A stretch of DNA of 64,000 bases from Infirmifilum sp. NZ (GTDB taxonomy: Archaea; Thermoproteota; Thermoprotei; Thermofilales; Thermofilaceae): NCBI RefSeq assembly GCF_022693705.1, contig NZ_CP094288.1, forward strand, positions 1,256,443-1,320,442, written 5' to 3'. The notes under the pieces are model-generated. The model worked only from the letters and a program-made list of their open reading frames with translations. It searched no databases and was not told where the DNA came from. Each line of letters begins with the position of its first letter. Positions within the stretch are counted from its first letter, which is position 1. Positions 53,696 through 59,512 of this stretch are shown here, in pieces. The translations under genes and the position numbers were made by a program.

Positions 53696-53746
53696 AAAAG
53701 CTGTTACTTAGCAAAGCTTTTAACTCTATTCACAGCTTTCAGCTTG

Positions 53747-54676
53747 ATGCTTGCCGTTTCAGTTAAAAAGGGGAGGAACGCCCACTTGGTCCCCTTCCCG
53801 TGGAAGATCAGCATCGTCGCATTCATGGCGAACCCTCCTCTAATGAAAAGCGACGTTCAGGCGGCTGTCGAAACAATAACGGTTCTAGCCAAAGACCCCT
53901 TCTTCGATGTCATAGAGGTTAACCTCATGAGCGATGAGGCTTGGGAAACCGTAGCGCCGATTCTCCAAAGCAGTGGAGTGGACGTCGCTGTTGGGCTTCA
54001 GCCGATGACTACAGCTCAAGGCCTGAACCCCTCATCTGTTAATGAGGACGAGAGAAGGAAGGCTGTCGAGGCTCTCTCGCAAGCAATAAAGATCGCGGCC
54101 GCAAGGGGGGTAAAGAAGGTAGGCTTCTCGAGCGGGGCTGACCCCGGCCCCGAAAACCGGGAGGCGGCAAAGGACTCGCTCGTCAAAAGCCTTAAGGAAC
54201 TTGCTAGCCTCGGCTCGAGGCTCGGCGTAAGCCTAATCCTAGAGACTTTCGACAGAGAGTGGGATAAGAGGCAGCTGATAGGGCCTATAGATGAAGCGGT
54301 TGAAGTTGTCCGAGAAGTCAGGCAGGAGTACAGCAACATCGGGCTACTGTGGGACCTCAGCCACGCGCCCATGCTGAACGAGAAGCCGGCCGCCCTATTC
54401 CGCGCGAAAGACTACCTCTCTCACATCCACATCGGGTGCTCTAAGAAGCTACCCGACGGCAGGATGGTCGACTGGCACCCAGGCTTCTACAGGCCAGGGG
54501 CTGTCAACGGGGTCGAAGACGTTGAAGAGCTGTTGAGGGTTCTCGCTGAAATCGGGTACAGCGGAGCCGTCGGCTTCGAGGTTAAACCCGAGGAGGGTCA
54601 GCACTGGAGGGAGGTGGTTGAGGCCGCGAAAGGTGTGCTCTACACGGCTTTCGCTCGGGTGGTGGAGCGTGAGTAA
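53747..54676 (+). CDS. Sugar phosphate isomerase/epimerase-like TIM-barrel protein
   Basis: The 309-residue protein has the xylose-isomerase-like barrel motifs: '[18 protein letters not shown]' (near 120), '[17 protein letters not shown]' (near 160), '[10 protein letters not shown]' (near 200), 'YLSHIHIGC' (near 225) and '[10 protein letters not shown]' (near 270), giving the metal Glu-Asp-His-Glu set. ATG 53747 lies 27 nt after CTTTTA (leaderless). It starts an operon with a cyclophilin-like gene and an aldolase gene, each overlapping the previous one, and likely isomerises the sugar that the aldolase cleaves. Confidence 0.8.
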
Positions 54677-55052
54677 GCTAAAGATAATCTTCCCCGAAAG
54701 CATAGGGGTAGTTGAGGTGGAGCTGACCGGGCGGAACCCCAAGACCGCAGAGGCTATCATCAAGGCTGCGCCCTTCGAGAGCAGGGTTAACCTTTGGGGG
54801 CAGGAAATCTACTTCTCCACACCCGTTAGGGTGGGCCAGGAGGTAGGCTCGGAGATCGTCGAGAGAGGCGACGTTGCCTACTGGCCTCCCGGAAACGCTA
54901 TTTGCCTCTTCTTCGGGCCAACTCCCGTGAGTAAGCCGGGTGAGATCAGGCCCGCGAGCCCAGTCAACGTATTTGGGAGGGTTGTGGGCGATCCAGACCG
55001 CCTGAAGGCTGTGAAGAGCGGCGAGAAAGTGAGAGTTGAGTGGGAGCCTTGA
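54669..55052 (+). CDS. Cyclophilin-like (DUF369/TM1367-type) protein
   Basis: The 127-residue beta protein has '[46 protein letters not shown]', then '[22 protein letters not shown]' and 'VNVFGRVV', which match the small archaeal cyclophilin-like family (TM1367). Its function is not established; some members lack peptidyl-prolyl isomerase residues. GTG 54669 overlaps the previous stop by 8 nt. The gene lies between the isomerase and aldolase and so may act on, or modulate, the same pathway. Confidence 0.78.
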
Positions 55053-55843
55053 GCTCCGGGAAGAAGCTGAGGCTAGCGAGGCTCTTCAGAGACGGCAAAG
55101 CCCTTATTGTTGCACTGGACCACGGGAGGAGGCACGGGCCCATAAAAGGAATTGAGGACATGCGGGCAACGCTTAGGATGGTTCTCGAGGGCTCGCCAGA
55201 CGCGGTTATGATGACCCCCGCGCTGATAGAGAAGTACTGGGAGATGCTTCCTGGCACCTTCATCGTGGCCAGGATCGATGGCACAGGAACAGTCAGGAGC
55301 CTCGACGAGACCGACGACAGGCTCATCTCAAGCGTGGAACGCGCGGTAAGGCTTGGGGCTGACGCCGTGAGCATCATGGTGTATCCAGGCTCCCGTAACG
55401 AGTCGGCCCTATGGGAGAAGCTGGCAACCGTGGTCGAGCAGGCCGAGTTACTAGGAGTACCTGTTATGGCTGAGGTCGTGCCTAAGCAGCCGGGCTTCCC
55501 TAGCGTGGACAGTGACGTCGTAGCCTACGGCGCGAGGATCGCGGCCGAGCTGGGAGCCGACATAGTCAAAACAATCTACACTGAAAACTTCTCCGAGGTC
55601 GTCCGCAAAACCCCAGTCCCCGTCGTTGTTCTGGGCGCGTCGAAGGCACCCCTCCTCGAGGTTTTGAGGAGAGTGGAGAACGCGGTTAGGGCCGGCGCCG
55701 CAGGAGCCGCCATTGGGAGGAATATATTCCAGCACAGCTCTCCTGGCCTCGTCGTGAAAGCGCTTATGAGCGTAATCCACAGAGGTGCTCCGGCCAGCGA
55801 GGTTATGGAGGAACTAGGGTTAAAGGAGGACCCGGTTATGTAA
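55040..55843 (+). CDS. Class I (Schiff-base) fructose-bisphosphate aldolase-like protein
   Basis: The 267-residue protein is a DhnA/FbaB/LsrF-type aldolase: '[14 protein letters not shown]' (near 22), '[10 protein letters not shown]' (near 145), '[11 protein letters not shown]' with Lys177 as the Schiff-base residue, '[12 protein letters not shown]' (near 195) and '[13 protein letters not shown]' (near 225). It may cleave a ketose phosphate. It follows the isomerase and cyclophilin-like genes with a 13-nt overlap. A downstream promoter begins the ArsR operon. Confidence 0.88.
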
Positions 55844-55887
55844 AGTAAAGCTTATATGTAAGATGCAGGTTACGGAGAATCGATGGC

Positions 55888-56190
55888 ATGGAAAGTAAAA
55901 AGCGAATTGAAGAGCTTACAGAGGTGTTGCACGTGCTAGCAAACCCTATCCGCCTCAAGATGCTAGCGCTAATAGCTGTGAAGCCTAGACACGCATACGA
56001 GCTCTCGAAGGTTCTTGGACTCTCCTACCCCTTGACTCACCTGCACGTCACCGCCCTCGAGAGAGCTGGCTTGATAAAAGGGGAGGTCGTCCCCGGCCCT
56101 CGTCCGAAGAAAGTGTACAGGCTCACCGACTTCAGGATTGAGGTCTCGCCCGATTCTCTGAGGGAGATAGGTGAGGAGCTTGAAGGCTAG
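55888..56190 (+). CDS. ArsR-type winged-helix regulator
   Basis: The 100-residue protein has 'LHVLANPIRLKMLALIAVKPRHAYELSKVLGLSYPLTHLHVTALERAGLI', a classic ArsR winged-helix with the recognition helix around 'LTHLHVTALE', followed by a wing with 'PRPKKVYRL'. No cysteine metal site is seen. CTTATATG at 55850-55857 precedes it. It overlaps the membrane coiled-coil gene by 20 nt, so it probably controls its own operon. Confidence 0.85.
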   Translation: MESKKRIEELTEVLHVLANPIRLKMLALIAVKPRHAYELSKVLGLSYPLTHLHVTALERAGLIKGEVVPGPRPKKVYRLTDFRIEVSPDSLREIGEELEG

Positions 56191-56554
56191 CGGAGTCTTC
56201 GCAATGGTATTATCCCTGTTGCTCGCCGCCCTGCTTGGCTTCTACGTTCCGCTCAAGATAGTGGAGGGGGTATCGGCCAAATCTCTGGACCCGATCTTCG
56301 GAGGCGTCGTTGCCGTCGTGAGCGTTATTGCGGGCGCGGCGCTGGGGTTCTTCGCCCTGGTTTTCACTGTAGTTCTACCCTTCGCGGAGAGCGAGGAACG
56401 CGGTGAAACATCTTACGCTCTTAGGCTCAGAGAGATAGAGGAGAGGCTGACCGTCTACCGTGCTAGGCAGAGGGCTATGCTAGAAGAGCTGGACGCGATT
56501 AAAAAGGAGTTGGAGGAGATAAGGGACATTCTGAAGGAGGGGATGGGGGTTTGA
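56171..56554 (+). CDS. Membrane protein with C-terminal coiled coil
   Basis: The 127-residue protein has two hydrophobic helices (about 10-33 and 42-70) and a charged coiled coil (about 82-123: 'REIEERLTVYRARQRAMLEELDAIKKELEEIRD'). Topology suggests both helices cross the membrane and the coiled coil lies in the cytoplasm. GTG 56171 overlaps the ArsR-like stop by 20 nt. It could anchor or recruit the bactofilin-like protein two genes downstream. Confidence 0.7.
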   Translation: MRSLKASGVFAMVLSLLLAALLGFYVPLKIVEGVSAKSLDPIFGGVVAVVSVIAGAALGFFALVFTVVLPFAESEERGETSYALRLREIEERLTVYRARQRAMLEELDAIKKELEEIRDILKEGMGV

Positions 56555-56685
56555 GCGGGGAGAAGCTCAAGTACGCGGAGGCTAGCGACGAGGAAGTGGA
56601 AGAAATGCTCCTGAAGAGGCTCAAGGAGATCAGGTCCCTCTTAGAGGAGATAAAGACGATTTTCAAGCAGGCAGGTGTTACCTAG
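56551..56685 (+). CDS. 44-residue acidic helical microprotein
   Basis: TTG at 56551 overlaps the previous stop by 4 nt (TTGA), and the stop TAG is directly followed by the ATG of the bactofilin-like gene. The product 'MSGEKLKYAEASDEEVEEML...' is short and helical with heptad-like 'LLKRLKEIRSLLEEIKTIFKQ'. The perfect spacing on both sides supports a true gene. It could be a coiled-coil partner of the membrane protein. No family is known. Confidence 0.65.
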   Translation: MSGEKLKYAEASDEEVEEMLLKRLKEIRSLLEEIKTIFKQAGVT

Positions 56686-57369
56686 ATGAGCGACTTGCTA
56701 GACCTCTACGAGGCTGAGCTTAGATCCAAGAAAGGTGGTAAGCGGCTGAGAGTGAGAGGCGCCGGTGTGGCGAGTGGAGGCTATTATAGGGAAGTCACCA
56801 TAAGCGGTGCTGGCAGAGTAGAGGGAGACATCGAAGCAGACACCGTGAAAGCATCGGGGTCTGCCGCCTTCAACGGAGGTATAGCAGCTCGGGAGGTGAA
56901 GTTCGCCGGCGCCGTAAAAGTCCGCGGCAACGTGAAGTCGGTTTTATTCCACGCGGCTGGTGCTGTTAGGGTTGAAGGGAGGATTGACGCGGAGGAAGTG
57001 AAAGTCGCGGGTGCGCTCAAAGCGCTAGGAGTAGCGGGTAAACGCGTGCGAATCAGCGGGTCTTTCAACGTCCAGGACGACATCGCGGGGGATGAAGTGA
57101 GCCTCAGGCTCTCCGATGACTCGAGGGCTAGGGTGATCAAGGCTGGCGTGGTCGAGGTTAAAGGTGGAGCCGAGCGTGAGCTGTCTTTACTCAACCTGCT
57201 CAGGTTACGTAGAACTACACGCGTGCTAGAGGTTAGTGAGATCAACGCTCAGGAAGTAACCCTCGAGGATGTCGTTGTTCGTGGTGTTATCAACGCGAAA
57301 AGGGTGAGGATGCGCGGTAAAGCTAGTGTAGAAGGTAGCGTTCTGGGTGAAGTAGTAAAAGAAGAATAA
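56686..57369 (+). CDS. Bactofilin-like polymer-forming beta-helix protein
   Basis: The 227-residue protein has a short N-terminal helix and then about 190 residues of short beta rungs with G at regular spacing ('ISGAGRVEGDIEADTVKASGSAAFNGG', 'VRGNVKSVLFHAAGAVRVEGRIDAEEVKVAGALKA', 'KRVRMRGKASVEGSVLGEV'). This resembles bactofilin and polymer-forming cytoskeletal proteins. It could assemble into filaments that shape the cell or attach to the membrane. It is last in the ArsR operon, which is translationally coupled throughout. Confidence 0.72.
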   Translation: MSDLLDLYEAELRSKKGGKRLRVRGAGVASGGYYREVTISGAGRVEGDIEADTVKASGSAAFNGGIAAREVKFAGAVKVRGNVKSVLFHAAGAVRVEGRIDAEEVKVAGALKALGVAGKRVRISGSFNVQDDIAGDEVSLRLSDDSRARVIKAGVVEVKGGAERELSLLNLLRLRRTTRVLEVSEINAQEVTLEDVVVRGVINAKRVRMRGKASVEGSVLGEVVKEE

Positions 57370-57377
57370 AGTATTTT

Positions 57378-58253
57378 CTACTCTTTCTTTTGCAAGTACT
57401 CATCTACAAACTCTTTAAGTGGGCTTAGAAGCCTGAAGAGCTCCATGGGTAGAACTATTTTGGTGGACGGCGATGAGGCTATGGACTGCAGAGCCGTCAG
57501 GTACTGGAGTAGCATGGTCTTCGGATCCAGCTTCCTCGCCTCCTCGTCCACATACCTGAGGGCGAGAGCTTGGCCCTCGGCTCTCAGAATTGCGGCCTGC
57601 TTTTCACCCTCGGCCTTGAGTATCAGCGCCTCCTTCTCACCCTGAGCCACTCTCACTGCGGCTTCCCGCTTGCCCTCCGCCTCCGTCACCATCGCCCGCC
57701 TGTTCCTCTCTGCGCTCATCTGCTTGATCATAGCCTCCTGGACTTCTCGGGGTGGAATGATCTCCCTAATCTCTACCGCAGTGACCTTAACACCCCACCT
57801 TGCCGTTACCTCGTCGAGCTTCTCCCTCAGGACCTCGTTGATGTACTCGCGCTTCGCGAGCACCTGGTCAAGGTCAATATCTCCCACCACAGCTCTGAGG
57901 GTTGTCGTCGCAATTCCTATGGCCGCGCCCCTGAAATCCGAGACTTCCACTACACTCTTCTTAGGGTCGATAACCCGGAAGTATATCAGGAAGTCTATGT
58001 CGACCGGAGCGTTATCCTTTGTTATACACGTCTGCTTCGTGACCTCAATGTACTGCTCTCTGAGGTCTACAACTACTCCCTTGTCGATGAAGGGTATCAA
58101 GAGCACTATCCCAGGCCCCGCTACCTTCACCACGCGCCCGAGCCTCAACACGACAATCCGCTGGTACTCCGGGACGACTCTTACGCTGCTAGCTATCACG
58201 CTGGCGAAGACGAGGAGCGCTATGAATATTAGGAACAGGGTTACGGGATCCAT
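57378..58253 (-). CDS. SPFH/stomatin-like membrane protein
   Basis: The 291-residue protein has a single N-terminal helix ('LFLIFIALLVFASVIASSVRVV'), an SPFH domain ('VPEYQRIVVLRLGRVVKVAGPGIVLLIPFIDKGVVVDLRE') and a long coiled C-terminus ('EAEGKREAAVRVAQGEKEALILKAEG'). Archaeal stomatins pair with NfeD proteases. Its partner NfeD gene lies directly upstream (36 nt) on the same strand. It forms membrane rafts or quality-control platforms. Confidence 0.92.
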   Translation of the reverse strand: MDPVTLFLIFIALLVFASVIASSVRVVPEYQRIVVLRLGRVVKVAGPGIVLLIPFIDKGVVVDLREQYIEVTKQTCITKDNAPVDIDFLIYFRVIDPKKSVVEVSDFRGAAIGIATTTLRAVVGDIDLDQVLAKREYINEVLREKLDEVTARWGVKVTAVEIREIIPPREVQEAMIKQMSAERNRRAMVTEAEGKREAAVRVAQGEKEALILKAEGEKQAAILRAEGQALALRYVDEEARKLDPKTMLLQYLTALQSIASSPSTKIVLPMELFRLLSPLKEFVDEYLQKKE

Positions 58254-58288
58254 TTCTAAATCATTGATTTACACCGCGGGGTTTCCTA

Positions 58289-59512
58289 TTAACTTTTCAC
58301 GCGCTGGACCTTCACTACCAGCCCCTCGAGACCTACAACGGTAACTTTCTCACCGGCGTGTATCTCTTCCTCGCTCTCAGCGGTCCATTCCTCGCTCTCC
58401 ACGAGCACGACCCCCCTTCTGCCGGGTTTAATCTCCGTTTTAGCGACTCCAACTTTACCGAGAAGCCTCTCCTCCACACTTAGTGTTTTCACTCTTAGCG
58501 CCTCGGAGGCCTTGAGTATTATGAACCCGACGAAAGCTATGGAGGCACCGAGGATTGCTACAATTGCTATCGTCGATGCAGTGAGTGCTACGTAGGGCTG
58601 TGCGTAGTACTCAATGAGCAAGGCGAGCATTACAAGAGCGGCGCCGCTGATACCGAAAAGCTGCACTCCCGGTTTAAGGAGCTCTACCAGTATGAGGGCC
58701 GTACCCGTGACTGCTAAGACGAATACCAGTAGGTTCACTCCGACAACGCCGAAAGTGTAAAGGGCTAGGAGCACCAGTACGGCCCCCAGCACACCCCACC
58801 CCTGGAATCCCGTGACATGAAACTCGAGAGCTATAAGAAGCACACCGAGTATCATAAAGAGGATAGCGACCCCGGGATCCATTACGAGCGAGAGGGCGTC
58901 GCTAACGACGTCTCCACCAACGTACTCGAGAGCAGCGTGCTCTAGCCCCTCCCGCCTCAGAACCTCTGTTAACAGGTTGGCTACACCATTAGCTATACCT
59001 GCCGCTACAGCCTCGTTGGTCGTGAGGGCCTTGCTCTCCAGTACGAGTTTCTCAGCAATATCTGCCGATCCGGCTACGCCCTTCTCCTCTAGCAGGCTCT
59101 TAATCCTAGAAACCATGTAGGACTCTACCTTCTCGTCGGCCGGGACGGGTTTACACGCCCCTATTACAGCCCCATCTCCCAAGTACAGCTTGCCCGCTGC
59201 CAAAGCAACTCCAGTTGCCGCGGAAACCGCTTTAGCGCCCGGAGGCACCCATGCTATAACTCTGCAGTTGCAGCCTTTAACAATGGAGATCATTTCGTCC
59301 ATTGACTTGAGGTAGCCGCCATAGCTGTTGATCACGACCAGCAGCGCTCCGCCCTCGGCTCGGTAGGCCGCCTTTCTCAGGAGATACACTTTGCCCTCAT
59401 CGATTTTCCCGTAAACTTCGACTACCACCACGCTTGCAGGCTGGGCGCTGAGGCACGGAAGCGTGAGGAGAATAACCGCCAGGACTGAAAGTGCTAGGCG
59501 AGCGCGCGTCAT
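58289..59512 (-). CDS. NfeD-type membrane serine protease homologue (ClpP-like)
   Basis: The 407-residue protein has a signal peptide, a ClpP/SppA-like domain ('GGALLVVINSYGGYLKSMDEM', 'PPGAKAVSAATGVALAAG', 'GDGAVIGACKPV'), four or five C-terminal helices, and the NfeD OB-fold tail ('GRRGVVLVESEEWTAESEE'). The serine thought to be catalytic in Pyrococcus PH1510 (A-S-A-A-S-A-G) seems retained as V-S-A-A, but the partner Lys is not clear. It cleaves stomatin in archaea. It forms an operon with the stomatin gene downstream. Confidence 0.88.
   Translation of the reverse strand: MTRARLALSVLAVILLTLPCLSAQPASVVVVEVYGKIDEGKVYLLRKAAYRAEGGALLVVINSYGGYLKSMDEMISIVKGCNCRVIAWVPPGAKAVSAATGVALAAGKLYLGDGAVIGACKPVPADEKVESYMVSRIKSLLEEKGVAGSADIAEKLVLESKALTTNEAVAAGIANGVANLLTEVLRREGLEHAALEYVGGDVVSDALSLVMDPGVAILFMILGVLLIALEFHVTGFQGWGVLGAVLVLLALYTFGVVGVNLLVFVLAVTGTALILVELLKPGVQLFGISGAALVMLALLIEYYAQPYVALTASTIAIVAILGASIAFVGFIILKASEALRVKTLSVEERLLGKVGVAKTEIKPGRRGVVLVESEEWTAESEEEIHAGEKVTVVGLEGLVVKVQRVKS

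Follow-up and report, generated by a model that had tools for sequence, protein, structure and literature searches.

Four coupled genes of the window (the whole stretch of 64,000 nucleotides analysed here) are, judged by sequence comparison, a real and conserved cassette of some heat-loving Thermoproteota, which constitutes an apparently undescribed bactofilin operon. All four are located on the plus strand and code for an ArsR/PadR-type winged-helix regulator (arsR, 55888-56190, 100 aa), a membrane protein (TMCC, 56171-56554, 127 aa), a helical microprotein (mp44, 56551-56685, 44 aa) and a bactofilin-type beta-helix protein (56686-57369, 227 aa). We predict, giving this reading an even chance, that they specify one self-regulated, membrane-attached bactofilin scaffold which serves the cell envelope.

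The first-pass annotation had reported four coupled reading frames with junctions of 20 nt, 4 nt and 0 nt, and both the positions and the junctions could be reproduced from the window sequence. This coupling is not due to chance, since relatives show the same four frames in direct succession. Junctions in the relatives range from -33 to +22 nt, or from -20 to +22 nt without the fused locus of genome G323. For scoring, we took from the start codons not more than 45 nt from each stop codon, a limit chosen by us, the one that came closest to giving a short overlap; junctions without a start codon in this range were left unscored.

Occurrence and integrity of the cassette

The spread of TMCC and mp44 was surveyed in 398 genomes from Thermoproteota. 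A TMCC profile matched in 34 of these and an mp44 profile in 33, all of which are among the 34 TMCC-positive genomes. A wider TMCC model, which matched in 30 of the 81 genomes of the class, added G005, G400 and G403, resulting in 37 TMCC genomes. The regulator gene is found directly upstream of TMCC in 36 of the 37, the exception (G004) being cut by a contig end, and mp44 is found directly downstream in 36 of the 37, being absent in G323. With its profile matches and its identical slot in nearly all cassette loci, mp44 is a real gene. The fourth slot contains the start of a beta-rung gene in 34 genomes and a fragment in one more (G396); a contig end is reached in G001 and no gene is present in G323. 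A match to the bactofilin profile occurs in the fourth slot of 24 of the 37 genomes, including a broken gene (G008) and two genes cut by contig ends (G005 and G007), and diverged beta-rung proteins with a similar motif at their start occupy this slot in ten further genomes. The four genes had been taken for one operon in the first-pass annotation, and their order is indeed present in relatives and not unique to the genome of the window.

TMCC is patchily distributed even among close relatives, as indicated by the 30 matches in 81 genomes, and no match was obtained for the Thermofilum-genus genomes G014 (81% complete) and G015 (95% complete). The window's own genome gave one match to the bactofilin, and this bactofilin is 94% identical to a protein encoded on a contig from Thermofilum sp. 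NZ13. Compared pairwise across genomes, the four proteins have diverged in a correlated manner (Spearman rho 0.30-0.61, a value reached by at most 1 of 500 permutations; 20-31 genomes per pair, with G323, G149, G403, G008, G007 and G013 excluded beforehand), which would fit joint inheritance, but shared ancestry or species history alone could produce the same correlation.

The ten diverged fourth genes all belong to families f7 and f8, code for 93-174 residues and start with MA[ED][KR]FD[RK]YY. Four of the ten were scanned and none of these matched PF04519 or another bactofilin model up to E 1, so that we call these proteins beta-rung only. Upon profile comparison with the cassette bactofilins a weak similarity was obtained (probability 59), which is restricted to C-terminal columns. 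The N-terminal motif is kept in the diverged proteins though their core is unrecognisable. G008 has a broken bactofilin frame (L067 9098-9740) beside intact arsR, TMCC and mp44 genes, which may indicate that the bactofilin is dispensable. Broken or fused frames were encountered in three loci (G149, G403 and G323). In G323, arsR and TMCC form one frame of 230 residues (L179 6908-7600, minus strand), and since mp44 and the fourth gene are missing there, this fusion may represent decay. Other apparent TMCC fusions of 218-230 aa in f7/f8 genomes were rejected because these frames are open upstream of the likely start; they overlie arsR in another frame.

The four proteins and the predicted promoter

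Similarity of the last protein to bactofilins had been claimed from the sequence, and this has been borne out by a Pfam match to PF04519 (E 1.6e-8, 35.1 bits versus a cut-off of 27.9), by profile matches to bactofilins of solved structure and by a structure model that shows a beta-helix with confidence. Cassette proteins from L073, L075 and L076 match PF04519 at 50-60 bits. This model is not fully specific, and PF04519 alone would not settle the identity because a match above cut-off in G089 (30.2 bits) sits in an apparent sugar nucleotidyltransferase. With the profile of the cassette family, the top two matches in the PDB are both bactofilins, 6ria (E 4.7e-5) and 2n3d (bactofilin A, E 9.5e-5); the single window sequence reached E 0.063 at best. 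The AF2 model (pLDDT 89.2, pTM 0.83) has an N-terminal helix followed by strands, and its core is a beta-helix without membrane segment. The fold on which the earlier interpretation of the protein starting at 56686 depended is therefore present in the model. A loop at residues 164-175 is of low confidence. Foldseek returned no match at E <= 0.001 for this model (best E 0.037). With VIA-align, the solenoids 4i84, 6n2b, 6n2c and 3p4g were matched at an rmsd of 2.7-3.9 and those of the left-handed GlmU/LpxD/LpxA type at about 11. There was no bactofilin among the 50 matches listed in either of the two lists, and the fold comparison demonstrates a beta-solenoid only.

The phylum-wide PF04519 count (78 of 398 genomes, 49 above cut-off) was not used as a bactofilin count, because the matches in G089 and G101 lie in apparent sugar nucleotidyltransferases (L078 7188-8318 and L092 7182-8249) and the model thus picks up other beta-helices. 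Other Thermoproteota have separate genes for bactofilin-like proteins with a length of about 400 or about 210 residues, which are not accompanied by TMCC or mp44 (L034, L038, L041, L044 and similar loci).

A motif near the N-terminus, [FLMI][DEKRN].Y...[LFMYI], is present in 19 of 24 cassette bactofilins versus 0 of 30 non-cassette entries, noting that the motif is short and was written after the cassette sequences had been seen. The non-cassette set (29 distinct sequences) was profile-matched and hand-picked from the fetched loci, and the first 45 residues were scanned. Four additional non-cassette proteins, from L072, the cut L061 and two from Geobacillus, also do not have the motif. The five cassette bactofilins without it are the broken copy from G008 and those from G106, G249, G253 and G400, which have related starts. 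In the window, the motif is found in an N-terminal helix (56692..56727, plus strand), which corresponds to residues 3-14 in the model, where confidence is low, and which we propose as docking element. This helix is not significantly amphipathic, as a fraction of 0.46 of the shuffled sequences reaches its hydrophobic moment; the corresponding fractions are 0.02 for L054 and 0.06 for L171.

TMCC matches no Pfam or NCBIfam family above cut-off, and the same is true for mp44 from the window. In the AF2 model of TMCC (mean pLDDT 74.4, pTM 0.32), a helix at residues 3-34 is followed by a short turn and a continuous helix at residues 41-125, and hydropathy analysis indicates membrane segments across the first 74 residues. 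The description of this protein as a membrane-anchored coiled coil holds insofar as it is located in the membrane and its tail is helical; the description has to be modified in that model and hydropathy indicate two membrane helices. The tail is presumably cytoplasmic. Its near-invariant part, YRARQRAMLEELD...LEEIRDILKEG (56456..56551, plus strand; conservation over 23 rows), ends in the helix that is common to mp44. Among the 23 aligned relatives, the mean fraction of the majority residue is 0.82 for residues 96-108 (the YRARQRAMLEELD block) and 0.63 for residues 109-124 (the last helix), compared to 0.26-0.37 for residues 1-95 (0.36-0.37 for the first 72 residues and 0.26 for the linker). 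The tail is far more conserved than the drifting membrane helices, and this argues for selection acting on it.

The mp44 family consists of helical proteins of 39 to about 51 residues, for which the alignments show the pattern LKY..LSDEE, the full motif being LKY..LSDEE...RL.EIK.LL.EI. A comparison by hhalign places residues 19-44 of mp44 on TMCC residues 102-127 (probability 96%, E 2.4e-9). The C-terminal helix of mp44 is thus probably homologous to the end of the TMCC tail, but a coiled-coil similarity helped by composition could also explain the match. Since 11 of the 12 secondary matches in the whole-genome mp44 search are inside TMCC tails, this is not a match to helices in general. That one helix occurs both in the tail of a membrane protein and in a free microprotein suggests co-assembly or competition. 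Conserved residues of the cassette proteins include RARQRAMLEELD, LSDEE and FDxYxxxL.

The claim of a linked ArsR-type regulator proved correct, both by a match to Pfam HTH_5 (E 1.8e-5, 24.9 bits versus a cut-off of 22) and by the constant position of the gene upstream of TMCC. The nearest solved chains are 1ub9 and 2p4w. The regulator stays below the cut-off of the NCBIfam metalloregulator model (33.1 bits versus 55) and of the PadR model (23.3 bits versus 27). Cysteine is absent from the protein from the window and, as read, from the regulators in 30 of 36 cassette loci, which makes thiol-metal sensing unlikely.

A promoter for the operon is predicted at 55838..55859 (plus strand) from the sequence and from the comparison of chosen upstream regions. 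A TATA-like box, CTTATATGT, is found at 55851-55859, 37 nt ahead of the arsR ATG, and is preceded by ATGTAA at 55838-55843, a possible operator. The comparison covers 15 of 36 upstream regions, with Thermofilaceae genomes G001 and G003 left out; in G003 there is no TATA-like box at the corresponding place. In all 11 Thermofilaceae regions compared, a TATA-like box occurs 35-38 nt before the arsR start, and in 9 of these 11 it is preceded at 13 nt by a hexamer RTRYAA. In the other four regions, the box is found 45-63 nt before the start. As the hexamer from the window shares nucleotides with the stop codon of the aldolase gene upstream, its conservation there may be partly coding. Autoregulation of the operon by the ArsR-type protein is plausible from this arrangement.

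Genes adjoining the cassette

Upon annotation of the surrounding genes, a same-strand ABC-2-type exporter gene, which is sometimes broken, was found to adjoin the cassette in 18 of the 37 genomes. It is located downstream in seven cases (G003, G249, G400, G156, G106, G017 and G302) and upstream in eleven, these being the f7/f8 genomes except G149. One further exporter gene is divergent from the cassette (G009). The adjoining frames lie within about 100 nt, with the first start codon being 145 nt away in G003. In G255, G323, G372 and G403, the permease gene next to the cassette is fragmented or a remnant, and in G255 the full pair is found at a distance of 1.35 kb. Exporters from eight loci were checked against Pfam. 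The ATPases that were scanned match ABC_tran and some of them also match, at varying strength, the DrrA C-terminal model. Among the permeases, ABC2_membrane is above cut-off in L170, L178 and L186, ABC2_membrane_3 is just below in L075, and the one from L069 matches nothing. We counted the ATPase pieces in a total of 534,551 bases and found 23 within 2.1 kb of a cassette versus 3 farther off; each fragment of a broken gene was counted on its own here, and there is no independence between related genomes. The 18 genomes with an adjoining exporter represent only few independent events. In two further loci, an OPT or MFS transporter is next downstream. No exporter gene adjoining the cassette was found in the five loci from the Thermofilum genus, which include the window. 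The frequent exporter neighbours make a role in envelope or transport at least as likely as one in cell shape.

The stomatin (Band_7) and NfeD1b genes next to the cassette (57378-59512, minus strand) had been pointed out in the first-pass annotation as likewise membrane-organising. Among the loci compared, they are direct neighbours only in those from the Thermofilum genus, and we therefore reject them as part of the system and consider this a local link. Upstream of the cassette, the window contains overlapping genes for a TIM-barrel protein, a cyclophilin-like protein (PF04126) and a DeoC/LacD aldolase (53744-55843). This aldolase cluster is kept together upstream of the cassette in Thermofilum-genus loci, whereas L058 has it downstream on the opposite strand and L059 close to the bactofilin gene. 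These genes were treated as local context and not as part of the system. In two loci, a gene for a CxxCxxCC zinc/iron-chelating domain protein is found just upstream of the cassette (L075 10311-10820, L184 5865-6383). The window's genome has one actin-family gene, located outside the window (L139, G000:C1:1022702-1023451), presumably coding for a crenactin.

Possible functions of the cassette

The computed features of the cassette are its conserved linkage, the fold class of the last protein, a two-helix membrane protein, a helix common to two proteins, a cassette-specific N-terminal motif and exporter neighbours. From these we infer topology, every contact, polymerisation, autoregulation and cellular role. 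TMCC would be anchored by its two membrane helices, with the conserved helical tail reaching into the cytoplasm, where mp44 would pack with this tail as a hetero-oligomeric helical bundle through the common last helix. The bactofilin, a presumably soluble and polymerising beta-helix, would be held at the TMCC/mp44 platform by its N-terminal helix of FDxYxxxL type, docking by this helix being the simplest reading of the motif. The ArsR-type protein would repress or tune the operon from the promoter directly upstream. The scaffold probably organises or protects membrane machinery, for example the ABC-2-type exporters often encoded beside the cassette. In a bolder version, to which we attach a small probability, the transcription factor would read the assembly state of the bactofilin polymer: TMCC and mp44 would either co-assemble or compete at the N-terminus of the bactofilin, and whichever partner is free would switch the ArsR-type repressor. 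If this is true, the cassette would represent a new class of membrane-state sensor, in which a cytoskeletal polymer controls the operon encoding it, and the exporters next to it, with neither nucleotide nor phosphorylation involved.

Several known systems resemble the cassette in part. In Bacillus, yhbD precedes two bactofilin genes in a putative yhbDEF operon, and the role of YhbD is given in print as unknown, with a regulatory one being suggested (PMC4627819, PMC12837462). There, as in the cassette, a predicted DNA-binding gene is directly upstream of bactofilins (BacE/BacF), but these are two in number and the regulator is of an unrelated type. With a Geobacillus pair, the window bactofilin aligns end to end at 31 and 27% identity. 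In Geobacillus, the gene upstream of the pair matches DUF4004, while its HTH matches stay below cut-off; the locus differs in having no gene between regulator and bactofilins, and its bactofilins are without the FDxY-type N-terminal motif. Modules of HAAS-PadR-Toastrack or Lia type, which act in envelope stress, are described in PMC11237479 as combining a regulator, a helical or membrane partner and a beta-helix protein, and some of the operons also contain an ABC ATPase and permease. The cassette has an ArsR-like protein instead of PadR, TMCC instead of HAAS and a bactofilin instead of Toastrack: no HAAS (DUF1700) or Toastrack domain (DUF4097, DUF2807, DUF2154) is above cut-off in TMCC or in the window bactofilin, and in L075 DUF2807 scores 18.1 versus a cut-off of 24.2. 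It thus seems to parallel both yhbDEF and these modules while being built from other families. Halofilins from Haloferax volcanii are archaeal bactofilins as well, with roles in shape (PMC12186497); nothing in our data ties the cassette to shape. Bactofilin A (2n3d) and 6ria are related by sequence-profile homology and beta-helix, and the window protein differs from them by a longer solenoid, the low-confidence loop at residues 164-175 and the N-terminal cassette motif. An account of such a bactofilin operon in Thermoproteota was not among the matches listed for the openly licensed literature (titles and abstract openings).

The most serious competitor of the scaffold reading, which we nevertheless consider rather unlikely, is an envelope-stress signalling module in which bactofilin, TMCC and mp44 sense the membrane state and sequester or release the ArsR-type regulator, a mechanism proposed for bacterial HAAS-PadR-Toastrack systems, the scaffold being mainly a signalling platform. 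Its gene logic would be that of the Toastrack/HAAS-PadR contexts with their winged-helix regulator, helical or membrane partner and beta-helix (PMC11237479). The partners that vary least in the cassette are the regulator and mp44 (36 of 37 each), and with cysteine lacking from most regulators a protein signal is plausible. However, the HAAS and Toastrack models do not match, and it is linkage that ties the ArsR-type protein to the other proteins, the fused frame from G323 being found in a locus without mp44 and the fourth gene. A role as transport or resistance module, with the cassette regulating or positioning ABC-2-type exporters, is improbable in our view. While the 18 same-strand cases, the divergent one and the two OPT or MFS loci point in this direction, the five Thermofilum-genus loci are without adjoining exporter, the permease is broken or a remnant in 4 of the 11 upstream cases, and the number of independent events is small.

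Thermofilum is a thin rod, and the cassette could be a cell-shape determinant, as had been proposed, besides an envelope system, in the first-pass annotation. Archaeal bactofilins with shape roles are exemplified by the halofilins (PMC12186497). This proposal is not supported by our analysis and we judge it doubtful, only slightly less so than the exporter accessory role: TMCC is patchy within the class and within the genus (G014 and G015), the actin-family gene of the genome could serve shape, and exporters adjoin the cassette in 18 of the 37 genomes. A correlation with rod shape was dropped, as 17 of the 19 genomes of family f7 have no TMCC match. Finally, TMCC with its two membrane helices and its helical tail, and mp44 as a small helical neighbour, could be a membrane-active effector and its antidote, from a toxin-antitoxin or defence system, and TMCC has a very weak SLATT_4 score (E 0.48). 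We consider this highly improbable, since none of TMCC, mp44 and bactofilin has a PADLOC match up to E 0.1, the Csa3 match of the regulator (E 4e-12) is ascribed to its winged-helix region, and stable four-gene linkage with a bactofilin would be unexpected for such a system. The microprotein from L171 matched a helical region in the model of an anti-phage protein (E 4.3e-4, 18.7 bits versus a cut-off of 1100), which was taken as chance.

In summary, the scaffold reading is the one best supported; a role in shape is possible, though less probable than one in envelope or transport. Bactofilins are widespread, and the control of their genes is, to our knowledge, little understood. In the cassette, candidate components for recruiting and controlling a bactofilin are combined within a single compact unit, namely a platform in the membrane whose tail is near-invariant, a microprotein made from the last helix of this tail, a bactofilin marked by its own N-terminal tag, and a regulator dedicated to the operon. 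With TMCC and mp44, two families of proteins are added of which the window members are above the cut-off of no Pfam or NCBIfam model. Bactofilin recruitment thereby becomes testable with three small proteins. The parallel to Toastrack modules and yhbDEF suggests that beta-helix scaffolds may have become coupled to transcription factors at the membrane more than once.
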